Source: Sordariomycetes sp. S80-01Y
Lineage: Eukaryota > Ascomycota > Sordariomycetes
Assembly (NCBI GenBank): GCA_037042185.1
Contig: JAXQJY010000027.1
Coordinates: 558,001 to 622,000 of the forward strand
Reading direction: 5' to 3'
Length of the DNA: 64,000 nucleotides
Positions 293-38,738 of the stretch are shown one piece after another. Each line of letters begins with the position of its first letter. Position 1 is the stretch's first letter. The translations under genes and the position numbers were made by a program. Below the pieces are notes generated by a model that made no database searches, had not been told where the DNA came from, and worked only from the letters and a program-made list of their open reading frames with translations.

Positions 293-1665
293 CCCTCGAC
301 TTTCACCGTCTCCAATCCAAAAAAGGCCAAGAATATTCGGAAAATACGGCATTATCGCGCCAGACTAGAGTAAGTCAACATGCAGCCCTGGAATAATCAC
401 TCTATAGAGACCCCACGTGCAATGCTCGAGCACTATTACTTGCTCCCCTCACCGTTATGCTTGACAACACCACCCTCTCTCGGCTGCAATTGACGGGGAA
501 GAAGATTCCTAGAACCTACCTCTTAGGGTATCTTGTTGAATTTTCTTCGGAAAGAACGGCAGAAGATTCATCGCCAGAACAGAGCCAGTCACCGTTCGCA
601 CTGCACGTGCCGCTGAAGGCCTGCCTGCCTGTGGATTCGCGGGTCAGCTTCGAGACAGAAAGATAGGTCGCCACAATGTACTTTTGCCAACTGTGCCTCG
701 ATATTTATATGTGATCAAAGCGGCACAGAGATTGTGAAAGCTCCGAATCAAGTCAGGCGTGGACAGCCGGATAGATCAAGATATGAGCCGCAGCGTAGGT
801 GCAGATGTCCTACTCGCAGATAAATGTTGCTTGTGTACAGGAATATAGGAGAGGTCATTCTAGAAGGCTAACGGATCTTCTGCGATATTGATTGTATATT
901 GCATCGCATATAGAATCGCAGAATTGCCCAGGAGGGGTCTCAGTCGGGCAACGCCTCTGGAGTTTATGCAAGTACACTCAAAACCGTAGGAATTTTGCGC
1001 TGATGGGTGATTCCTTATGGATTTATCGCTGAGATAAAAATTTTACTCAATGATCGTAATGTGATAAATTGCCCCATTGGTACCGCTACACTATAGGCGC
1101 AAGCAACTGTTGTTCCTCGGAACAATTCGTGCCTCGACCCTCTGAGCCTGCTTTCCTTTGGGATTCCACCACTCTTAGGTCGATTGATTATGCAAGAGTA
1201 ACACGTATCCGCGATATAGTCAGAGCCGGTTTGGTCGGAGCCTGAGTCCTCTAACTTTGCTCGTCGCTTGCTGCGCTCACTTGTGGGATTGGGCAACCTG
1301 TAGATGTAACCAGGAACCAATCCTCTTCTTTGATTTTCCGGTCAGTATGCCCATACTAAATATTAAAAGTAGTAACGCCGAATCTTCCGAGGAGTGAAAT
1401 AAACACCCCCAAGCCACCTCTTGCTCCACCTGTCTGCATAGTGAGGTCGGAACTGATTACATAGATCGACTACCAGCTTCGACGAAACGGGTCACTTCCG
1501 TTGACGTCTGTGGGTCATAGTGATGGCGGCAATCACCATTGGCGTCGCGATCTAACCATCTCTTATTTGTGCTCTATACGTGGGACAGTCTCCTCTGGAG
1601 GGTATCTTAACAACATGTCTTGCTCGATTTCGCCAGTATTTGTCTATGTACACAGAAAGACTAGC
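293..1665. other. Gene-free stretch
   Basis: Only short open frames (up to 101 codons) without recognisable motifs, signal peptides or plausible splicing partners. It holds the upstream region of the histidine phosphatase and the 3' flank of the permease. No repeat or RNA gene was recognised. Confidence 0.5.
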
Positions 1666-3422
1666 TTATTTCGACTTTGCGAACAGCTTCTTCCAACTTG
1701 AAGATGCGGTTCCAGCAGACTCCACATCAGTGTGCGTCGTGGATGCCTCAAGGACATCATCAGGGCTATACACCAAGTTGATCTCTTCAACCGGAATAAG
1801 CCAGCCATCGCCACGTCCGACTGTGAATTTGTGCCCAAAGAACAACACAACAAAAAGAAGTGTCCCAATGTAAGCTGTCAGGAAGTCCGACACATTCCAC
1901 TCCGAGGGGAAGAAGACGTAGAATCCGTTGAGAAGGCCAACGACAACTGAGAAGACGATGCAAACGTATGCACCAGCCTTTCCGCATATTGACTGGTAAG
2001 GAAGGGTCGAACGATCCACGCCCTGGACTTCGATTGCTTTGCGGAAACGAAGATACGCGAGCGAGATACAACCCCAAGAAAAGAAGGCGGCCATGTTGAT
2101 CATGTTGACGAGCCAGTTGAAGACAACACCAGCGCTGGAGCTGACATTCAAATATGCCAGAAGTGCGAGAACAGTGCAGCTCATCACAGCATAGTATGGC
2201 ACCCCCCATCTGGATGTCGTAGTGAAGAGTTTAGGCGCGTTACCCGCCACGGCGAGGGAGTAGATCGATCGGGAGGCGAGGTACATGTAGATGTTGCCGG
2301 CTGACCACGCCGAGCACAGAATGACCGCGTTGACAATGTGATCGAGCACACGGATACCTGAGTCCTTGATACCGATGACGAAAGGCGAGGCTCCGGCGCC
2401 GGCTCCACCAGATGACAGCTCTGGAGCGTCAGACGGGCAGGTCAAAGTCACTCCGAGAATCGGTAGGACGTAGAAGACGACGAGGCGAACGATGAAGACT
2501 TTGGCAGCTTTCGGGATCGTCTTTTGCGGGCTTCGGGTCTCGCCGCCGCAGGTTGCGACCATTTCGGCGGCAAAGGTCAGCTTGAGGAAATGGTTAGCTG
2601 GCGGTTACGGAACTATGGTCTGGATGAACTTTACCGGCAACACGACACTGACGAGAACACCGAGGAAAGCTACAAACTTGCCCGAGCCTCCGTCAACGAT
2701 CCAAGCATTTGCAGGACCAGGGTCGTGCCAGTACTTGAATCCCAAAGTCTCCCCCGACGGACCTCCGCCGGCCGCAAGAACGACTGACAAGATCAGGATA
2801 CCTGTCAACATCGCCAGCTTCAGCGAAGAGAAGGCAAACTCGGCTTCTCCGCTGTTGGCAACCGGCAGGTAGTTCAAGCCAACGATGATGACGAAGAAGA
2901 TCGTAATGAAGACGGCGTCATGGACAGGCGGGTTCCAGTAATGAATGATGAGTGTAGCCACGGTGATCTCGAAGGGCACCAGGATCGAATACGCGTACCA
3001 GTAGTTCCAACCCAGCGCGAACCCAAAGGACTTGGACAAGAAGCGTGTCGTGTAGTGGTCCGGACCAGAACCGTTCAGGGGAATGTAGGCGGCCATCTCG
3101 AAGAGAAGCGTAGAAAAGACCCAGACGAAGGAGCAAATAATGACGAAGCCGGCGAGACACAGGGCAGGGCCGCCCCTATTCAAGGTTCGGCCTGATCCAA
3201 CAAGATATGCCGTGCCGATGCATCCTGAAAAGTATCATGTCAACTTGCTTGCCCTCGAGTCAACTAGCAGAAGACTTGGAGCTTACCTCCCATAGCGATC
3301 ATGTATAAATGTCTCGACTTGAGCTTCGTATGAGCCGCGGCCTTGGTACTCTCCAGCACCTGGCCATCGGAAATGTTGGCGGACTCAGTCCCCATGGTTT
3401 TCTTCTCTGTCACAGTGTTCAT
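1666..3422 (-). CDS. Amino-acid permease (AAT/APC superfamily)
   Basis: A plasma-membrane amino-acid:proton symporter of the fungal AAT type. Three exons: 3422-3287, 3224-2635 and 2580-1666; introns of 62 and 54 bp. Total 546 aa, the usual length for the family. The join at intron 1 restores the diagnostic sequence SRHLYMIAMGGCIGTAYLVG at the start of TM1, and the join at intron 2 gives LPLTFAAEMVATCGGETRSP, the conserved loop of the family. About 12 hydrophobic segments follow. The ATG at 3422 was chosen; an upstream in-frame ATG at 3470 would add 16 residues. The gene is the first member of a putative nitrogen-compound catabolic cluster (Zn2Cys6 factor, M20 and M24 hydrolases, aldehyde dehydrogenase, amine oxidase), so uptake of that substrate is the likely job. 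Substrate specificity is not visible. Confidence 0.9.
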
Positions 3423-4195
3423 TCCAGAAGTTGATGTGTCCAATTCAATGGCACGAGACGCGGTCAACAAACCGCTAGGTTGGGTCAGGTTTGGGGGGAT
3501 GGTCAGACTGCAGCGCCGAGCAGAAGAAGGGCGGATTCGGCGATGTCTTATAACTCACGATGTGCTGGATGCTTCACGTCCGCAGGCCCGGGAGGATTGG
3601 TCACTGATGTTGGAGCTTATCGCACTTTCATTCGAGCCTTGCGAGACCAATATGGCCCTGTCGACTCGATACTCTGGGCACTAGGCAGTGCTGGCAAGTG
3701 TTATCAAACGTGGGTGCGCCACCGAAACCTATCTCTCAGAACCCTGCCAACACCATCGCCGGTTTATGCTGTTATACGGGTAAGCCATGCTTTCGGTGGG
3801 CCCCCCATGGGGCGAGCTCTGTATCACGTCGATACGAATTCGCCCTAGCTTGCGGCTAGGTATCTCTACTCCGCATTTCTTTGGTTGCTCGTGGAATGAT
3901 AGCCGCGCACCGTTCCCCGCGTCCAGTCCGAGCAGTTGGATGATGTACGTAAGAGCGCGCAACTGGGCGTAGGTCTCCACTGTATATCAGACTATCGGGT
4001 CGTTACTGGGATGCGGCGTATGCGGCGGCCATTTGCGTGCTTATCAGCCCTCACCCTTGCAACCCCAACCATGTCCATGGCCACTCCACGAGAGGCGAGG
4101 CTACGACCAACCCTCCGACTGAAACCCGCTGCCGCTATTAACCCTACGACGACTCCCGCTGGAGTCGCTGCACGCGCCCACTGGATTCCAAGCTG
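3423..4195. other. Divergent promoter region, permease / Zn2Cys6 factor
   Basis: About 770 bp between two divergent starts. No coding capacity was recognised; it should contain the promoters of both genes. Confidence 0.5.
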
Positions 4196-5743
4196 ATGGA
4201 ACAGCCGTCAGCATCAGCCGGCGCCGCTGACCGCCCGACACGCCGGCGTTTTGCCGTCGATGGTCGCGTTCGTTCGGGCTGCTTGACGTGCAAGACCCGT
4301 AAGAAGAAGTGCGACGGTCAGGTCTCCAACCTTGACGGCCGTTGCGGCTCCTGCACGCGCTTGGGGCTGGTCTGCGAGAAGGCGCCTCTTCGCACCGTCC
4401 AACCTCGACCAGCCAGGAGGAAGGGAAAAGCTCGTGCAGACCAGGAGACTTCCAGCCCGCAAACGTCCTCCAATAAGGGCGAGAAAGGGTCCGAAAGCCT
4501 GTCTTCGGGCAGCCCTCAAGACAACAGTCCTCCGGAGAGGTATCATGATGGTGCTGGCCAGGGGTCTGGTCTTCTGGTTAACGCCAGCACCGACTTCCCT
4601 CCTATGACAGCATCTCTGGATGATGGAGAGCGTCGATTCCTCCTCAAGTACTTCTTGGATCATGTTGCACCCCTTTGCTCGATTCTGCAGAAGGATGGAG
4701 CCGTATTTTCCTCCGTCTTACTACCCATGGCCATTGTCGACCCGCCATTACTATACGCACTCTTTGCTTACGCTTCGGTCCATTCCAACGCTGCCACAGC
4801 AAAGGATCCTGATACGACTGATGCGCGCCGGGAGTACGAGAACCAGGTCGCTCGAGGTGTAGCTGAGGCTATCAAGAGGAACGCTGTCACTGAGACAACA
4901 GTAGCGTGTGCGCTGGTGATTAGTACTACGGAGGTTGTTGCGGGGGACACGTCGCGGTGGCTCCTCCATCTTCAAGGCGCCGGCCATCTTGTCAACCACC
5001 TCGGGCCATCAAGACTCTTAAAGACCAACGATGGGAAGTTTCTCCTGCGTTATTTTGCCTATCATGATATAATGGCATCGCTGAGCACTGCTCGACGGCC
5101 CTTGTTGGAGGGCGTGTACTGGATAGAAGAGGTTGAGGCCATGGTCGAGTCGGCTGATTCGTTCATGGGCTTGGGCCACCACATCTTTCGACATTTACCG
5201 GAGATATGTGCTTTCGTCGAAGACACGGCCGATCTGGATTCTTCATCAGACGCTGACCGGCGGGCCAGAGAAGCTTTACGAGCCGAAGACATGGCCCAAG
5301 CACTCCGCACACAGGACCTGCGCATTCGAGTTGATCTGGAAGACGGCAACAAGAACGCACTCCTCAATCATGCTGAAGCATTCCGTTTCGCCTCCCTTTT
5401 GTACCTCTACCGCCATCTTCTGCGTTTCTGCGACGCCGGTGCCGTCTACAAGCTGCGCATGAACGACTGTCTGCGACACGTCCTCCGGCATGTCGCCCAA
5501 GTCCCAGAAAATCTATTTTGCGAGATGGGCCTGTTGTTTCCATTGTTCATGGCTGGAATTGTGAGCGGTGGCGACAGCGGCTCCAAGGAGTATGTTCAGA
5601 GGCGCCTCCTAGGGATTGAGAATTGGACCAAGTTCAAGCATGTCAAGAGGACCCGCGAGTTGTTACAGCTCCTATGGGAGAGGAATCGAACAGACTGGGA
5701 AAATGTACTTTTGGAGTTAGACTGGAAGTTGTCTTTGGCGTAA
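4196..5743 (+). CDS. Zn(II)2Cys6 transcription factor
   Basis: A nuclear regulator of 515 aa in one exon. Residues about 28-61 hold the binuclear zinc cluster, RSGCLTCKTRKKKCDG...RCGSCTRLGLVCEK, with six cysteines; the loop between the third and fourth Cys (10 residues) is at the long end of the usual range. A Ser/Pro/Lys-rich linker follows, then from about residue 140 the helical region DGERRFLLKYFLDHVAPLCSILQKD-like that is characteristic of the PF11951 (Fungal_trans_2) middle domain. It lies between the permease (divergent) and the M20 hydrolase (same strand) and is the obvious candidate pathway-specific activator of the catabolic cluster. Target and inducer are inferred from position only. 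Confidence 0.9.
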   Translation: MEQPSASAGAADRPTRRRFAVDGRVRSGCLTCKTRKKKCDGQVSNLDGRCGSCTRLGLVCEKAPLRTVQPRPARRKGKARADQETSSPQTSSNKGEKGSESLSSGSPQDNSPPERYHDGAGQGSGLLVNASTDFPPMTASLDDGERRFLLKYFLDHVAPLCSILQKDGAVFSSVLLPMAIVDPPLLYALFAYASVHSNAATAKDPDTTDARREYENQVARGVAEAIKRNAVTETTVACALVISTTEVVAGDTSRWLLHLQGAGHLVNHLGPSRLLKTNDGKFLLRYFAYHDIMASLSTARRPLLEGVYWIEEVEAMVESADSFMGLGHHIFRHLPEICAFVEDTADLDSSSDADRRAREALRAEDMAQALRTQDLRIRVDLEDGNKNALLNHAEAFRFASLLYLYRHLLRFCDAGAVYKLRMNDCLRHVLRHVAQVPENLFCEMGLLFPLFMAGIVSGGDSGSKEYVQRRLLGIENWTKFKHVKRTRELLQLLWERNRTDWENVLLELDWKLSLA

Positions 5744-27619: not shown

Positions 27620-29940
27620 ATGTCAGCTGCTCATGAGCAGCATCTGACTGCGTACCGCAATGGCAAACTTCGCGAAAGACGAGGCAAAGCGCGCTCTTCG
27701 GTGGCCTGTCTGAGCTGTCGCGTGCGAAAGGTTAGGTGTGATGTTGTGATTGGCGCTCCATGTAGCAATTGCAAGCTCGACATGATAGGTGAGCACTGCC
27801 AGCTGCCCTTATACGATCGATGCCCATGCTCATTTTGCCACCTTCAGAATGTACAGTGAGACGAGACCGTCGCAACAGGTCAGTGCTTCAGATCGAACCC
27901 GAACCCAGCTGCTCACACACAACAGAAAGCACTTCACATCCTTGCTGCCGACAGTGGTAGCTCGAAATCACCTAACTGAGCCTCGTGGTCCTCCGAAACT
28001 GGCCCCAACGAGCCAGCCCACGCAGTTCGAGTTTTCGGGAAAAGGCAACGAGATAGTAGTCTATCGATCAACGCCATGTCAGGATGGAAGCGAAGTTACA
28101 AAGACCGGCAGAGGGTCTAGCTGGCTGGCAAGCATCGAAGGGGACGAAACCCACTCTTGGCAGAGGCTGCCACATTTCATCGAGCCCATAGGTCACGAGA
28201 GACTGAGCGCTGGGCATCTGAAGTTTCTTGACTCACAAGGCGCGTTTGACCTCCCTCCCCGACCGCTGCAGCGAGCTCTCATCGAAGCCTACGCCGAGTT
28301 TGCATACCCGTACATGCCTCTGATACAATTGCACGAGTTTCTGGGTAGCCTCGACGCAGCAGAAAACGGCCACAACAAGCGGTACAGTCTCCTGTTATAC
28401 CTGGGGATTCTGTTTGCAGGCGCGGCGTTTGTCGACCCGAAATCGCTGGAAGGCGACGTTTCCGGGTTTGAGACACGGAAGAAAGCCAGGAGGGTGCTCA
28501 TGGAGAAGGCAACGGTACGTGTGGTTCGATCTGTGGCATAAGAGAAGATACTGACGATGAATGAAGCTTCTGCATGACCTCGGAATAGAAAAAGACAGGA
28601 TCGTGCTCACCCAGACGGCTCTTCTTATGTCTTCATGGTCAGACATTTCGCACGATCACAAAGACTCATGGCATTGGATGGGTCTAGCGGTGTCATCAGC
28701 TTTCGCAGCAGGGCTCAATAATCTCCAACCCCCTCATCAGATGGATCGCAGCGATCACAAACTCCGGAAGAGGATCTGGTGGTCCTGCTACATGCGAGAC
28801 AGATTTCTCGCTCTCGGATTGCGGAGACCCATACGGATTAAGGATTCTGATGTATCGGTGCCCGGGTTGGAGGTTTCGGACTTTGAGATTGCAACCCTCT
28901 GCCGGGATACCAGCATCATCAAGTCGGAGCTGTCGGTTTTGTTCCAGTTCAGCAAACAAGTCGAGCTGGCGGAGATCTGCATCCACCGTTCCAGACTCTC
29001 TTCGCTGATTGAGGGCGTGCTGAACACCCAAAACGCGTACGATAACGCAGAGCAGCCATCGGGAAACACGGGTACTGTCCAATGTGAGTGGGAACTGGAG
29101 GATATGTTCGCGCACTCGGCTGCCTGCTTGGAGTTGTGGAAAGCCAGCATACCTGATTCGTGTCAGTATCAGTTCCACAGGGATGAAGACGTCAGTCCAT
29201 CCATTCTTCTCCACCAGAGTCATCTGCAGATGTCTTTTCATACTCTGCTTTACACGCTTCATCGACCAAGGTTCCTCCCTTCAATACCGAAACAGACATG
29301 TGTATTCTCAACGCTATTCAGCAAAGGGTCCGGACGAGAGGTCCTCGTATCGGCGCTGGAAATCACCCGGATCGCGACAGATCTAAGGCAACTTGGACTC
29401 GACTGCTACCTCCCAGTCTCTGGTGTGACAGTCATTTTCCCAGCCATGGTTATCTGTCTACTTGAGATGAAGGCAGAGAATCCCGAGGTAAAGCGCCGCG
29501 CAGCAGCCCGATTCGATAGCTGCATGAAAGTCATGGAGCGCCTGCAAGAGACGTACATTGCGGCAGACCTGGCCATCAATTACTTTAAGGCCGCTTTAAA
29601 GAAGCAGCAGCCTGTCATGCCGCTCTCGCCGAAGGACGAGGTGTCAGAACAGGCGTCATCAGTCCTGTTGGGTGGTGAAGAGGAGGCAGTTCTTGCACTA
29701 AAGCCGAGCATGTTCTTTAAAGGGAGTACGAACGATGATATAGGCTTTGTGTGCGGGGAGGAAATCACATCGGACGATAATGTGGCCTCACTGCCTGTTA
29801 CGCCGGCTGCCTCCCAGTCTAATCATGATGCAGGCATGGATATCGCCCTGATGGGTGAAGCTGAGGATTTGGACACCAACATCGACTGGGATATTCTGCA
29901 GGATTTTGACTTTGACTTTGACTTGCAAATTGGAGCTTGA
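27620..29940 (+). CDS. Zn(II)2Cys6 transcription factor, CTF1-like
   Basis: Four exons: 27620-27788, 27848-27878 (31 bp), 27926-28514 and 28567-29940; introns of 59, 47 and 52 bp; 720 aa. The zinc cluster begins VACLSCRVRKVRCDV and continues PCSNCKLDMIECTV only when the first intron is removed. The middle PF04082-type domain spans roughly residues 190-450: YPYMPLIQLHEF, LYLGILFAGAAFV, SWHWMGLAVSSAFAAGL and KRIWWSCYMRDRFLALGLRRP. This order is typical of cutinase-transcription-factor-like proteins. The C-terminus is strongly acidic (DWDILQDFDFDFDLQ), a likely activation domain. It may control the lyase/transporter pair upstream; this is inferred from position. Confidence 0.9.
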
Positions 29941-30817: not shown

Positions 30818-30835
30818 GGTTGGGTGGCCGAGTTG

Positions 30836-30888
30836 GTAAGAATTCCCTCGCAGCCCTAACACAACTCACGATCTAACCCACATGTTAG
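30836..30888 (+). other. mRNA-type intron-like insert in the tRNA D-loop
   Basis: A 53-bp insert starting GTAAGA, containing two CTAAC branch-like motifs (30861-30865 and 30879-30883 region) and ending GTTAG, in the size range of the protein-gene introns of this window. Its removal leaves a normal D-loop. The borders are ambiguous by two bases because GT occurs at both ends. The last part can fold as CTAAC...GTTAG. Splicing is inferred; no RNA data. Confidence 0.6.
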
Positions 30889-30908
30889 GTTATGGCGTCA
30901 GGTTAAGG

Positions 30909-30926
30909 TTACCTTAACATAACACT
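30909..30926 (+). other. Canonical tRNA anticodon-loop intron
   Basis: 18 nt inserted one base 3' of the anticodon. It contains CCTTAAC, complementary to the anticodon region GTTAAGG, the usual anticodon-intron pairing recognised by the tRNA splicing endonuclease. Confidence 0.75.
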
Positions 30927-30978
30927 TCCTGGTGGAGCAATCCTCGCGCGTTCGAATCGCGTCCCAATCAGACAGTTC

Positions 30979-30987
30979 TTTTTTTTT
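30979..30987 (+). terminator. Pol III terminator of tRNA-Leu
   Basis: Nine consecutive T starting 8 bp after the discriminator base, followed by further T-rich runs. Confidence 0.75.
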
Positions 30988-31625
30988 CTCTTTTTCTTTT
31001 TGTCTTTTGTTTACTCCTGGGTCGAAGAGGCGAGCGCTGGTCCAGGCCAAACGCCATGATGCCCAGACCCACCATGCCCTTTTTGGCGGAGCTCGACAAG
31101 TTGGGAAGTCAAGCTCAGTTCCTCCTCCGGACAGAGGCCGTACACCATGCCTTTAGGTAAAGCAGATTGTGATACATCCCGCGAGGATGAAGACTGTATC
31201 ATGATGTTGTTCTGGCGAAGCTTAGAGGCATGGCAATACTCGTTAAAGGAGGCACAATTGGTCACGTGTTCGAGCGTGGGTGCTCATGTCGCGAGGGAAT
31301 ACCAACCTGACAAGGAAACTTGTTGTCAAGACTTCCTAGACGGGAACATATGCACGAGAGCCTCAGTTTGGTCGCCGGAGCTTTTAAAGACCGAACGGAA
31401 CGGCGTGCTTCGGCAGGAAACGGCCCAAGGATCCACTCTTCTCCGAGAGCCGGGGCTCAGGCCGGCCGAGAGGGCCCAAAGGAGCAGCTCTCGGCGACTC
31501 GATCCGCATCAGTGCGCTCCTGCCCCTCGTTGGCAGCAAAACCCCCACGCAGCCCGATCTCGGCCCCGCGGGGTCTCGCACCGAACTGCTGCTGCTACCG
31601 CCGTCGGAGGAGCTCCTCCGACATT
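30988..31625. other. Gene-free stretch
   Basis: About 640 bp between the tRNA terminator and the dehydrogenase. Long open frames here (for example 31147-31647) lack motifs and run into the dehydrogenase in another frame. Confidence 0.45.
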
Positions 31626-32684
31626 ATGTTTTCCCGGCGGCTGTTGACATCTCGCGCGCTCCTCAATTCTTCATCATCACTGTCCGTTGTCCCCAGAAGC
31701 CCTCATTGTCTCGTCAGCACATCCGCCTCGCCCGCCATGAAGCTCCTCTACCCGACCTCGCTCGTCCTCGAAATCCCCAGCCTCCAGGGCTTCTCCGTCG
31801 ACCTCCACCCCTACGACGTCAAGTCCGCCTCCATCCCCTCCGAGCACCACGATGCCGACATCCTAGTCACCTGGACCAACACGGCCCAGAACCTCAAGTA
31901 CGCAAAGGACAACCTCAAGAACCTGCGCTGGATCCAGTCCCTGGCCGCTGGCCCCAACGACGTCCTTGGCGCCGGCTTCGACACCAACAAGGTAATCGTT
32001 ACCACTGGATCGGGCTGCCATGACCGTACAGTCGCCGAGCATGCCCTGGGCTTGCTCCTGAACGCCGCGCGAGGCTTCTACGAGATGCGCGACTACCAGC
32101 TCCAGGGCAAGTGGCCCGGACACTTGGGCGGCCCTCAGCCCGATCGTCCCAAGGACAAGTTCACCACCCTGCGAGACGCCAATGTCCTGGTGTGGGGCTT
32201 CGGCAACATTGCCAAGTCTCTCGTTCCTAGCCTGACGCTTCTGGGCGCCCATGTCAAGGGTGTTGCGCGAACTCCCGGCGTGCGAGACGGCATCCAGATC
32301 TACAGCGAGGACTCACTCGCTGAGCTCCTCCCCAAGACCGACGCTCTGGTCATGATCCTCCCAGGATCCGACTCGACCAATAACGTCCTCAACGCTGAAC
32401 GCCTGAAGCTGCTGCCCAAGCACGCCTGGGTCGTCAACGTCGGCCGCGGCACCTCCATCGATGAGGACGCGCTGGCCGACGCGCTGGACCAGGGAAGAAT
32501 CGGGGGCGCCGCGCTGGATGTCTTCGTGACGGAGCCTCTGCCCGAGGGAAACAGGCTGTACAAGACCAAGAACCTGGTGCTGTCCCCCCATGCAGCCGGT
32601 GGAAGGCCGCAGGAGGCGGAGGACCTGATTGCCTATAACTTGAGGAGGTTCAAGGCGGGGCAAGATTTGAAGAATGTGATATGA
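31626..32684 (+). CDS. D-isomer-specific 2-hydroxyacid dehydrogenase
   Basis: Single exon, 352 aa from the ATG at 31626. NAD(P)-dependent reduction of a 2-keto acid to a D-2-hydroxy acid. The Rossmann motif is degenerate, VWGFGNIAKSL (Gly-x-Gly-x-x-Ala). Catalytic Arg is in the N-terminal half of the cofactor domain's second part (VNVGRGTSIDEDAL region), Glu in FVTEPLP and His in LSPHAAGG. The first 37 residues are Ser/Arg/Leu-rich without acidic residues, like a mitochondrial presequence; a second in-frame ATG at 31737 (MKLLYP) begins the conserved domain. Two products with different locations are therefore possible. The substrate (glyoxylate, hydroxypyruvate or other) is not visible. Confidence 0.9.
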   Translation: MFSRRLLTSRALLNSSSSLSVVPRSPHCLVSTSASPAMKLLYPTSLVLEIPSLQGFSVDLHPYDVKSASIPSEHHDADILVTWTNTAQNLKYAKDNLKNLRWIQSLAAGPNDVLGAGFDTNKVIVTTGSGCHDRTVAEHALGLLLNAARGFYEMRDYQLQGKWPGHLGGPQPDRPKDKFTTLRDANVLVWGFGNIAKSLVPSLTLLGAHVKGVARTPGVRDGIQIYSEDSLAELLPKTDALVMILPGSDSTNNVLNAERLKLLPKHAWVVNVGRGTSIDEDALADALDQGRIGGAALDVFVTEPLPEGNRLYKTKNLVLSPHAAGGRPQEAEDLIAYNLRRFKAGQDLKNVI

Positions 32685-34988: not shown

Positions 34989-37900
34989 ATGAGTTGGCTT
35001 CGACACTATGGGTGTGTCCTCGGGACCGCCTTGGTAGTGGCTGCGGGAAACGCACCCCAGGATTACCTATACGCTTCAACAATCATCCAGACATCCACCA
35101 CCTACCTAGCCTTGGAAGATGTCCAAACAAGCTGCGCTGCAGGAAACTTCGTTTGCGAACCCACGCATGGGCCCGGAGGTTCATTCCCCGGCTTCAACGA
35201 AGACGAGGATTGCGAAGACTGTCTCCTGACTTCGCACGGCCCTGGGGGCTCGTCCCTCGGCTTCAACGGAGACGAAGAGGATTGCGAAGACTGTATCATT
35301 GACATACCCGAAGATTGCGATGTTTGCCAGCTTCCGGGAGGTGGCTATACCTGGTGGCCATCCCCCGGCCCCGAGGGGGCTCCCCGTTGCTGCGCTGCCG
35401 ATTCCGACTGCCCCCGAGGAGGATCATGCAGCCCCTGCGGCATCTGCGAGACTATATCCGACCGCAAGTGTCAGTCCTGCAGTGACTGCGAACTCGGAGA
35501 GATGTGCAACACTAAAGGGACTTGCGAGCCGCTTCCTGGCCCGCCATGCGATGATGATAAGGCTTGCCCTGATGGCTTTTCGTGCACCGAAGGCAAGGTC
35601 TGCGAAGCAACCACCGGCGTCCTCTGCAAGAACAACTCGGGCTGCTCCCGAGGCCAAGTCTGCAACTCATTTGGAGTCTGCCAGACAGTGGCTCTACCCC
35701 AGTGCACCAGAAACTCGGACTGCCAGAACTTTCAGATCTGTACTTCAGATAGCATTTGCAAAGATGTCAACCAGGAAGCCCGCTGCGAGAGACAGTCAGA
35801 CTGCTCCGATAGTGAGATATGCAACTCCAGCGGCGCCTGCCAGGCTGCGGACCGTCCTCAGTGCGACTCCGACTCCAACTGCGCCGGAAGTCAGACCTGC
35901 AGCCCTCAGGGGTTCTGTTTGAACCCTCCCAACGGCCCCTCGTGCGACGATACCTCCGACTGCGGTGGCAGTGAAATATGCGACATCAACGGAAAATGCC
36001 AGCCTGGAACACCTTCGACCTGTTCAGAAGACGGCGACTGCAATTCCGAGGAGATCTGCGATGTGGCCGGTCAGTGCCAGCCTGGCCCAGCCCCCGGTCC
36101 GCAGTGCAGCAGGGATACAGACTGCGACGACGATGAGTTCTGCAACGCCCAGGGAGTTTGCGAATCGGGCCCTATCACTCAATGCTCCCAAGATTCCGAC
36201 TGCTTGGACTCTCAGTCGTGTGTCAACGGCCTGTGCCAGGGTGAGTCGAGGGACCCTACCAGCCCTAATAACCCTGGGGACCCGGAATGCCTCGAAAACA
36301 ACGACTGCACCCAAGGAGACGTCTGCAAGCAAGCTGAGTGCGTCCCATGCTCCGCCAACGACGACTGCTCAGGGGGCGATACGTGTAGCGATGGCCGCTG
36401 CGGTCCACCACAGTCCTGCAGCGGGAACGCCGACTGCCAAGACGACGAGGTCTGCAAGGCTGGCAGCTGTGGCATATGTACCGTTGATCAGGACTGCTCA
36501 GGTGATCAGGTCTGCCTCGCTGGATCATGTGGGCCGGCACCGCCCAACCCTGAATGCTCCACGGACCAGGATTGCCCCGGGGGCGGCGTGTGCAGAGGTG
36601 GTAGCTGTGGTGACTGCGTCTCGGACGAGGACTGCTTGAACGACCAGCTCTGTGCTATAGATGGATCATGTACCACGCCCCCAGCTCAGCCTGAATGCTC
36701 CTCGGACGGCGATTGCCCCAACGGAGGCGTATGCCGTCAGGGTGTCTGCAGCGTCTGTAACGTCGATCAGGACTGCGGCGATGGACTCGTGTGCTCCAAC
36801 TCATCATGTCAGCCACCTACGACTGGACCCGACTGTTCCTCGGATAGTGATTGCCAGGGGGGCCAGGTCTGCAATAGTGGAACGTGCGGTTCCTGTGGCT
36901 CGGACGAAGATTGCGGCCTCGGAGAGATATGCGTGGATATTTCCAGCAACATCAACCCCTTGACGAAGAGGCAAGCTGATGTTGACGTCCGTATCTGCAT
37001 CCCGAACCCGCTCCCGACAGGCTCATGCTCTCAATCGTCAGACTGCGCCGGGGGTTTGGTCTGCTTGGGTGGCGTGTGCGGCTCGTGTACAGGAAACGGT
37101 GATTGCGCCGTCGGGGAGGTATGCGCTGATATCAATCTCGACGCTGGGGGCCTCACGAAGCGTCAGAACGTGGGCGTTGACGCCAGACTCTGCATCCCCG
37201 ACAACATCATCAACACGCCCCCGGGCTGCGGTCAGAACTCGGACTGCACTGGGGGACTCATCTGCCTAGGCGACGGGACGTGTGGATCTTGCAGCGGCAA
37301 TGATGATTGCGACAACAGTCTGATCTGCGCCCAGGTTACCAGTGGCCTTGAGGTGAATCTTCTGCGCAACAAAAGACAGGAGCCGGATTTGGACGTCTTC
37401 ATCTGCATCGCTCCTCCCACAGTCATCGATCCAGCCCCTCGCACGTGCACGAGTACGGCTGACTGCGATGGCGGTCTCGTGTGCCTAGGGACAGGAGTCT
37501 GCGGCACCTGTACCGGCGATGACGACTGCGCCGACGGCTCTATATGCACTGGTGTCGTCGGAGGCGTCTCGCTCGGTGGCGGAACCTCGGCAGCTAAGCG
37601 ACAGGACATCGGCGTGGACGTGTCTGTGTGTGTTCTCCAGCCCCCGACTGACCCTGACACCTGTGACACCGCCGAGGACTGCTCAGGGGGCCAGGTCTGC
37701 GGCGCAGATGGCCAGTGCGGCTCATGTACAGGAGACGACCAGTGCTCAGGCGGACTTGTCTGCATTGATCTCTCTCTTCAAAGCGGCTCGGGCTCTGGGT
37801 CAGCGGGCTCGGGCTCCGGTGTTGCGGCCAAGCGCCAGGACGTCTCGGCGGACCTCTCGCTCTGCCTTCCATCCACGAGCATCCCGACACCGCCAACGGA

Positions 37901-38738
37901 TAACGGGTGCTCTACCGCAGCTGACTGCGACCAAGGACTCATCTGTACTGCTGAAGGCCAATGCGGCAGCTGCTCCGAGAACGGGGACTGCGACAATGGT
38001 CTCATCTGCGCTGGACTGTCTCTCGGTGCTTCCACCGACATCCTGAGGAGACAAGACGTCGGAGTTGATGTACAGCTCTGTATCGAGGCGCCTATCACGA
38101 CCCCTACGTCAGGTGGCGGCGGTGGAGGGAGTAACTCGTGCAGTTCGACTTCAGATTGCGACGGCGGCCAAGTCTGTAACGGAGGAACGTGCGGATCTTG
38201 TACTGGTAACGACGACTGCTCGTCTCTGGAAGTCTGCGTTGCTGCTTCGCTGGGCACCGACCTTGGGCTCAGGAAGAGGCAGGTCGACGTGGGGGCAACG
38301 ATCCAGATTTGCGTACCCAGGATAACAATTCCCTCGTTGGAAGTGTCTGGAGACCTCGGCGGTGGAAGTGTTGACGCTGGTGTTGACGTCGGTGGCGGTG
38401 GCGGTACTGTTGACGTTGGTGCTGGCATCGATGGTGGTGGTGGAAGCGTTGACGTTGGTGCTGGTATCGATGGCGGCGGCGGTAGTGGTAGTGTTGACGT
38501 TGGTACTGGGACTGGCGGGGCTGTCAGCCAGTCTTGCAGCGATTCTTCGCAGTGTTCAGGCGGTCTCGTGTGCAAGAATAACACCTGCGGATCGTGCTCA
38601 AGTTCCGGGGACTGCGGCCGGAACTATACCTGCGTGTCTGCGTCGGGCAGCATTCTGGGTGCGAGCGCCGGCCTTCAGATCTGTGTCTTCAACCCCATTC
38701 TGCCGATCGATTCGGTCAATCTGGGGTTCGGAATCTAA
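34989..38738 (+). CDS. Large secreted cysteine-rich repeat protein with periodic dibasic sites
   Basis: Single exon, 1249 aa, no intron. Residues 1-22 are a signal peptide. From about 120 to 640 the protein is a run of short repeats of the form C-x4-DC-x5-C-x5-C, similar to Dickkopf-type/EGF-like cysteine knots. From about 640 to 1110 seven longer modules follow, each with one cysteine repeat and then a dibasic site before Gln: KR at 660, 724, 795, 870 and 948, RR at 1020, KR at 1096. After each comes a short Val/Asp segment ending C-I/V/L (for example DVGVDVQLCI). Then there is a Gly/Val/Asp-rich repeat and a last cysteine module. Kex2 cleavage in the Golgi is likely. The function is unknown: cell-wall or effector-like protein, or a polyprotein precursor. 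Confidence 0.85.
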   Translation: MSWLRHYGCVLGTALVVAAGNAPQDYLYASTIIQTSTTYLALEDVQTSCAAGNFVCEPTHGPGGSFPGFNEDEDCEDCLLTSHGPGGSSLGFNGDEEDCEDCIIDIPEDCDVCQLPGGGYTWWPSPGPEGAPRCCAADSDCPRGGSCSPCGICETISDRKCQSCSDCELGEMCNTKGTCEPLPGPPCDDDKACPDGFSCTEGKVCEATTGVLCKNNSGCSRGQVCNSFGVCQTVALPQCTRNSDCQNFQICTSDSICKDVNQEARCERQSDCSDSEICNSSGACQAADRPQCDSDSNCAGSQTCSPQGFCLNPPNGPSCDDTSDCGGSEICDINGKCQPGTPSTCSEDGDCNSEEICDVAGQCQPGPAPGPQCSRDTDCDDDEFCNAQGVCESGPITQCSQDSDCLDSQSCVNGLCQGESRDPTSPNNPGDPECLENNDCTQGDVCKQAECVPCSANDDCSGGDTCSDGRCGPPQSCSGNADCQDDEVCKAGSCGICTVDQDCSGDQVCLAGSCGPAPPNPECSTDQDCPGGGVCRGGSCGDCVSDEDCLNDQLCAIDGSCTTPPAQPECSSDGDCPNGGVCRQGVCSVCNVDQDCGDGLVCSNSSCQPPTTGPDCSSDSDCQGGQVCNSGTCGSCGSDEDCGLGEICVDISSNINPLTKRQADVDVRICIPNPLPTGSCSQSSDCAGGLVCLGGVCGSCTGNGDCAVGEVCADINLDAGGLTKRQNVGVDARLCIPDNIINTPPGCGQNSDCTGGLICLGDGTCGSCSGNDDCDNSLICAQVTSGLEVNLLRNKRQEPDLDVFICIAPPTVIDPAPRTCTSTADCDGGLVCLGTGVCGTCTGDDDCADGSICTGVVGGVSLGGGTSAAKRQDIGVDVSVCVLQPPTDPDTCDTAEDCSGGQVCGADGQCGSCTGDDQCSGGLVCIDLSLQSGSGSGSAGSGSGVAAKRQDVSADLSLCLPSTSIPTPPTDNGCSTAADCDQGLICTAEGQCGSCSENGDCDNGLICAGLSLGASTDILRRQDVGVDVQLCIEAPITTPTSGGGGGGSNSCSSTSDCDGGQVCNGGTCGSCTGNDDCSSLEVCVAASLGTDLGLRKRQVDVGATIQICVPRITIPSLEVSGDLGGGSVDAGVDVGGGGGTVDVGAGIDGGGGSVDVGAGIDGGGGSGSVDVGTGTGGAVSQSCSDSSQCSGGLVCKNNTCGSCSSSGDCGRNYTCVSASGSILGASAGLQICVFNPILPIDSVNLGFGI
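38350..38517 (+). repeat. Coding repeat rich in Gly-Gly-Gly-x-Val-Asp-Val-Gly
   Basis: Inside the cysteine-rich gene, a set of imperfect 13-14-codon units (SVDVGAGIDGGGG) repeats about four times at the protein level. The DNA shows matching tandem runs of GTTGACGTTGGT, so copy number may vary between strains. Confidence 0.6.

Follow-up and report, generated by a model that had tools for sequence, protein, structure and literature searches.

The nuclear tRNA-Leu(AAG) gene described here is interrupted in its D-loop by a 53-nt insert, which is very probably a spliceosomal (U2-type, GT-AG) intron within a gene transcribed by RNA polymerase III (Pol III). If so, introns of this type would have entered tRNA genes of this genome at least four times, counting one gain per isotype and position for the four isotypes and four positions concerned. 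The original prediction for this locus dealt with a single gene; the observation is larger than that, as two more copies of the Leu gene and four other tRNA genes carry inserts of the same kind. The window, which is the whole 64-kb stretch of DNA analysed, corresponds to positions 558001-622000 of contig C10 in a genome of 30.87 Mb (16 contigs). The host is treated as a Hypocreales fungus because of the protein identities of its RPC2 frame (in L064; 961 aa searched): 93% with a metagenome protein, 92% with Tolypocladium ophioglossoides, and 86-90% with the majority of the other Hypocreales named among the top matches.

The tRNA-Leu(AAG) gene of the window

The gene and its putative intron are composed of the following parts.

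30818..30835, + strand: exon 1 of tRNA-Leu(AAG), with the 5′ acceptor strand, the A box and the start of the D-arm (acceptor-stem 7/7 paired)
30836..30888, + strand: putative mRNA-type (GT-AG) D-loop intron, 53 nt (assigned from its motifs; excision yields tRNA-Leu(aag))
30889..30908, + strand: exon 2, with the remaining D-arm and the 5′ half of the anticodon arm (AAG at 30905-30907)
30909..30926, + strand: ordinary 37/38 tRNA intron, 18 nt (ARAGORN after excision)
30927..30970, + strand: exon 3, with the anticodon 3′ strand, the variable arm, the T-arm, the 3′ acceptor strand and the discriminator A
30979..30987, + strand: T9 run, Pol III terminator

The insert opens with the donor GTAAG (30836-30840), contains CTAAC at 30873-30877 and a second CTAAC at 30856-30860, and closes with TAG (30886-30888). 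The A box, which begins at 30825, and the B box in the T-arm (30950-30958) are both intact, as is the T9 terminator. In the Leu genes the insert starts straight after the A-box match, and its first G therefore occupies the place of the next exon base. The coordinates of the gene and of its two inserts, the donor, the CTAAC motifs, the TAG end, the 18-nt intron, the two internal promoter boxes and the terminator had all been described correctly in the original prediction. The 37/38 intron contains CCTTAA, which is complementary to TTAAGG in the anticodon-loop (read by eye).

Excision of 30836-30888 leaves 100 nt, which ARAGORN identifies as tRNA-Leu(aag) with an 18-nt intron, so that the mature tRNA would be 82 nt, the length that had been predicted. 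The unspliced gene receives no ARAGORN call, lies below the Rfam gathering score in the scan of the 64-kb window, and is absent from the 62 tRNA hits of the Rfam search of the genome, in which the best 63 candidates were scored. The comparison of tRNA finding with and without the insert, which had been proposed as a check, gave an ARAGORN call for the spliced sequence only and no Rfam match at the gathering score for the unspliced one.

The tRNA gene is flanked by a Fungal_trans domain frame (28561-29940) on its upstream side and by a 2-hydroxyacid dehydrogenase frame (31320-32684) on the other. Farther along, 34989-38738 (+ strand) holds a cysteine-rich frame of 1249 aa, in which three DUF7107 stretches occur along with repeated KRQ motifs resembling Kex2-type sites. 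A BLAST search of plasmids with the window tRNA locus gave no match, and exact tRNA exon patterns had 0 matches in viral contigs and 0 in prokaryote genome contigs. Group I, group II or other catalytic introns were also considered; no Rfam family reached its gathering score in the window, and since 49-53 nt, the size range of the inserts, is too short for a ribozyme core, a catalytic intron was rejected.

Insert-bearing tRNA genes and the tRNA catalogue

A BLAST search of the genome with the window gene identified three places (the window, L002 and L003), and the insert is present at the same place in all of them; the examination of every Leu(AAG) copy, also proposed with the original prediction, therefore found the insert in three of three BLAST-detected genes. 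L002 and L003 lie on contig C7, approximately 2.4 kb apart and inverted (G000:C7:341090-343644). Two further inserts, in L041 and L046, were recognised by running ARAGORN on the 62 Rfam tRNA hits. A BLAST search with the initiator gene returned a second copy, L068, which is also insert-bearing, so that both BLAST-found initiator-Met genes carry an insert. The Arg(CCG) gene L070 was obtained from a B-box search, and BLAST finds no second copy of it; two Gln(UUG) genes were recognised, one with an insert (L046) and one insert-free (L017). The seven inserts are located as follows.

tRNA-Leu(AAG), window, L002 and L003: D-loop; 53, 49 and 52 nt
Initiator tRNA-Met, L067 (= L041) and L068: variable loop; 51 and 52 nt
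tRNA-Gln(UUG), L046: after the first base of the anticodon, in the two-intron reading; 52 nt
tRNA-Arg(CCG), L070: D-loop; 52 nt

None of the Leu, Arg, initiator Met and Gln inserts is at position 37/38, and ordinary introns at that position are also present in the insert-bearing Leu, Arg and Gln genes. The A box and the B box are kept in all seven genes, with every insert placed between them, and each gene is followed within 40 nt by five or more consecutive T; a cloverleaf can be drawn in each only after excision.

The tRNA genes catalogued number 80 (62 + 5 + 13, including the partial L063 and the odd L060), and seven of them carry an insert. B-box patterns, combined with a structural scan of the retrieved stretches, contributed the 13 further insert-free genes. 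The pattern GGTTCGANYCC occurs at 171 sites (93 + 78), of which 170 were examined, mostly with 250 bases upstream, the exception being a palindrome on C9 that was covered on a single strand; the pattern GGTTCAANYCC occurs at 110 sites, of which 100 were listed, and among these five lie in known genes and 20 others were examined. Isotypes were assigned by eye from the tRNA body and the anticodon because ARAGORN misplaces the introns in several genes. Among the isoacceptors to be expected, Arg-UCU, Asn-GUU, Gly-UCC, Ile-AAU, Ser-UGA and Val-CAC were not recovered; a tRNA-Asn sequence used as a query had no match in the genome, an uninformative result. These six may have other T-stems or may contain further inserts; since the catalogue is incomplete in this respect and in the sites covered, seven insert-bearing genes is a lower bound. 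A search pattern modelled on intact Leu(AAG), written for one D-loop length, hit the positive control, Leu(UAA), and otherwise a single site with three mismatches and a different anticodon.

Two loci require separate comment. L060 (G000:C6:475296-475367, - strand) is an insert-free, initiator-like tRNA-Met(CAT) gene that is identical to the spliced initiator at 56 of 72 positions and keeps A1-T72, with two of its five T-stem pairs broken; it may be decaying or may be a working, diverged initiator. Because L060 is insert-free, the insert cannot be claimed for every initiator-type gene. The Gln gene L046 has an alternative reading, returned by ARAGORN for its unspliced form, with a single 67-nt intron and the anticodon UGT. 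By eye, Gln is favoured by the D-arm and by the discriminator T, the latter being shared with L017 and L116.

Splice-site signals and excision in silico

All seven inserts are 49-53 nt long and contain a GTRNG donor, a CTAAC motif and a YAG end (CAG or TAG), with 9-12 nt between the second A of CTAAC and the end of the insert. Each of the seven thus has, at its junctions, the longer donor signal and the YAG acceptor expected of a GT-AG intron. In dinucleotide shuffles, for which every excision register giving the same tRNA was counted, the full grammar appeared 8, 0 and 1 times per 20,000 for the Leu inserts of the window, L002 and L003, 3 and 2 times for the two initiators, 10 times for Gln and 12 times for Arg. 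Taken alone, GT-AG ends are not rare there (857 to 4974 of 20,000), in part because shuffling leaves the two terminal bases in place. The signals of the window insert are therefore beyond chance.

Excision at boundaries chosen by us gave the expected isotype under ARAGORN for seven of seven genes, and the unspliced forms gave it for none, one being missed and six assigned a wrong amino acid; standard tRNA finders can accordingly miss or misname genes of this kind. The register of excision is unique for Gln only, and the other six genes have 2 to 4 equivalent placements, one of them GT-AG. In addition, a boundary-free scan was performed over stretches retrieved from the genome, in which grammar segments of 44-71 nt on either strand were excised singly and the products submitted to ARAGORN. 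Among 109 such segments, a tRNA across the junction was obtained for the seven genes only (14 rows, as loci overlap and Arg has two acceptors); displaced control excisions gave a tRNA in 0 of 86 cases.

The signals were also compared with putative coding introns of the same genome, sought in 63 sources (256,629 bases, some overlapping) as grammar segments between open frames. With 180-base flanks, 23 segments were found vs 6 in a reversed-sequence control, so that approximately one quarter of the 23 are possibly chance; the counts were 34 vs 22 with 120-base flanks and 14 vs 5 with 240-base flanks. A first frame test on the window alone, under other settings, gave 7 vs 7 and hence no coding-intron excess. 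Nineteen of the 23 putative coding introns are 44-62 nt long and the remaining four are 68, 68, 85 and 87 nt, and their donors include GTAAGT (8), GTAAGC (3), GTACGT (2) and GTGCGT (1); because the search imposed GTRNG, CTRAC, YAG and 44-89 nt, independent information comes from the excess and from how the lengths are distributed, and from nothing else.

Maintenance and divergence of the copies

The window copy and L002 are, to judge from their stems, maintained genes and not decaying ones. The 12 pairs of the acceptor- and T-stems are intact in both; between the two genes, six pairs are the same, five have changed on both sides and one on one side, and it is this paired, compensatory pattern that argues for maintenance. 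Identity between these copies is 54% in the insert, 83% in the part before it and 84% in the part after it (with the 37/38 intron). L002 and L003 are identical outside the insert, 88% identical within it, and unlike in their flanks; they look as if their exons had been homogenised. The two initiator genes have exons that are 100% identical, inserts that are 68% identical, and diverged flanks. No sign of a repeated intron element was observed, as each of the Leu, initiator and Arg genes, used as a BLAST query, matched its own copies and nothing else.

A Leu(AAG) tRNA is also needed for translation: of the 367 Leu codons in seven window ORFs, 164 are CTT or CTC, and in eukaryotes the AAG (inosine) tRNA reads both.

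In both initiator introns (L067 and L068) a consensus B box, GTTCGAATC, adjoins the branch site. It lies in a 21-nt block that extends through the branch site and differs at one base between the two genes, AGTTCGAATC(T/C)CGTCTAACAA; much of the remaining intron has diverged. In the S. pombe U6 gene the B box is located in the intron, and the B-box match in both initiator introns recalls that arrangement. By analogy, we would guess that the intronic B box serves as a Pol III promoter element of the initiator genes.

Proposed order of processing and alternative explanations

Since the A box, the B box and the T-run are intact, Pol III would be able to make a precursor by transcribing through the insert. 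The splice signals suggest that the spliceosome would then excise the 49-53 nt intron in the nucleus, after which the cloverleaf could fold, and the tRNA-splicing endonuclease and ligase would act last, on the ordinary 37/38 intron where one is present. At least in the Gln gene the endonuclease would have to wait, because the insert splits the anticodon.

The original prediction had offered two possibilities, a spliceosome acting on a Pol III tRNA precursor or a noncanonical endonuclease substrate, and the former is now the better supported, with splicing itself inferred from the sequence. The latter belongs with the proposal of ectopic tRNA introns, in which the tRNA-splicing endonuclease would cut the inserts out at a bulge-helix-bulge or at some relaxed motif. 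Such introns are described in passages of PMC3978253 for the D-loop and other positions in red algae and nucleomorphs, with many of those in Guillardia having no defined motif, and the Leu, Arg and Gln genes also carry introns of the ordinary endonuclease type; the proposal is nevertheless unlikely, as it leaves unexplained both the GTRNG, CTAAC and YAG signals in seven of seven inserts and their uniform length. Bulge-helix-bulge pairing gave it no positive support, being no higher than in shuffles (0.27-0.76 of which reach the observed value), and as the inserts formed 5-7 of 10 pairs and the canonical Leu intron used as a control scored no higher (7 of 10), this test has no power and could not separate the inserts from the control. 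A Pol II origin, in which read-through transcripts would undergo mRNA-like splicing before being trimmed to tRNA, would present the spliceosome with its usual substrate; the conservation of both internal boxes and of a nearby T-run in all seven genes, and flanks that are not conserved between copies, make it distinctly unlikely.

Two further explanations dispense with splicing. The inserts might never be removed from what are decaying or pseudogene copies, other intact genes doing the work, and the insert-free L060 and L017, together with the incompleteness of the catalogue, allow some room for this. Such decay had also been named in the original prediction as the case that would overturn it; we consider it very unlikely, given the insert in all three BLAST-found Leu(AAG) genes, the compensatory stem changes between the window copy and L002, the intact boxes and terminators of all seven genes, and initiator exons that have stayed identical though their inserts and flanks diverged. 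Alternatively, the insert might be retained in the mature tRNA as a tolerated expansion of the D-loop or variable loop. The positions in the initiator and D-loop cases would permit this, but the Gln insert splits the anticodon in the two-intron reading and the splice-site grammar is present in every insert, and retention is accordingly extremely unlikely.

A spliceosomal intron thus remains our explanation of the inserts. To a broader reading we would give an even chance: that spliceosomal introns have repeatedly colonised the nuclear tRNA genes of this lineage, working initiators among them, so that translation initiation and the reading of CUU and CUC depend on the spliceosome processing Pol III transcripts ahead of the tRNA endonuclease, and that the initiator introns supply a Pol III promoter element. 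In teaching, the splicing of tRNA and that of mRNA are kept apart, each with its own machine and substrates; if the present interpretation is correct, several tRNAs, including those from two initiator genes, need the spliceosome, and this division is broken. The spliceosome would also act on very short Pol III transcripts other than U6, and the genes would provide a natural case of intron gain into sequences with little freedom to vary.

Comparison with known systems

Two U6 hits were identified in this genome, L179 (G000:C8:546034-546133) and L180 (C8:978300-978404), with scores of 57-59 bits; both match end to end, and no U6 intron was seen in them. One of the two seemingly has two extra bases beside the ACAGAGA box relative to the consensus.

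In the open literature of PMC, at the level of titles and the beginnings of abstracts and with most subscription papers falling outside its scope, no spliceosomal intron in a nuclear tRNA gene was found; the original prediction had likewise known of U6 cases and of no nuclear tRNA case. Introns of the mRNA type have been reported in the U6 genes of S. pombe and other fungi, as cited in passages of PMC5832005. As in the present genes, a GT-AG spliceosomal intron there interrupts a Pol III RNA that is short and structured; the difference is that U6 is a part of the spliceosome, whereas the hosts here are tRNAs of four isotypes with inserts at four positions. Accordingly, mRNA-type introns in structured Pol III RNA are known from U6, and a nuclear tRNA host appears to be new.

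Spliceosomal introns also occur in fungal U3 snoRNA genes, where, according to passages of PMC5832005, they have a mean length of 92 nt and lie almost all in one stem-loop, with a YAG acceptor, a CTRAC core, a branch-acceptor distance of 6-36 nt and a GTRWGT donor. The tRNA inserts share with them a structured non-coding RNA host and the same general grammar of donor, branch and acceptor, the YAG, the CTRAC core and the branch distance being found in seven of seven; each of the seven donors differs from GTRWGT by one base and none is exact, and the branch motif is RCTRAC in four and TCTAAC in three (both by eye). They differ from the U3 introns, as described there, in that those average 92 nt and are confined largely to one stem-loop of an RNA that is not a tRNA.

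Among tRNA genes, the ordinary eukaryotic 37/38 introns are present in the very same Leu, Arg and Gln genes, but occupy another position and are cut by the tRNA endonuclease. The ectopic tRNA introns of Cyanidioschyzon, the Guillardia nucleomorph and archaea lie outside 37/38, including in the D-loop (passages of PMC3978253), and resemble the present inserts in interrupting a tRNA gene away from the canonical site; in contrast to the GT-branch-AG signals found here, they are attributed in those passages to the tRNA endonuclease and the bulge-helix-bulge motif.
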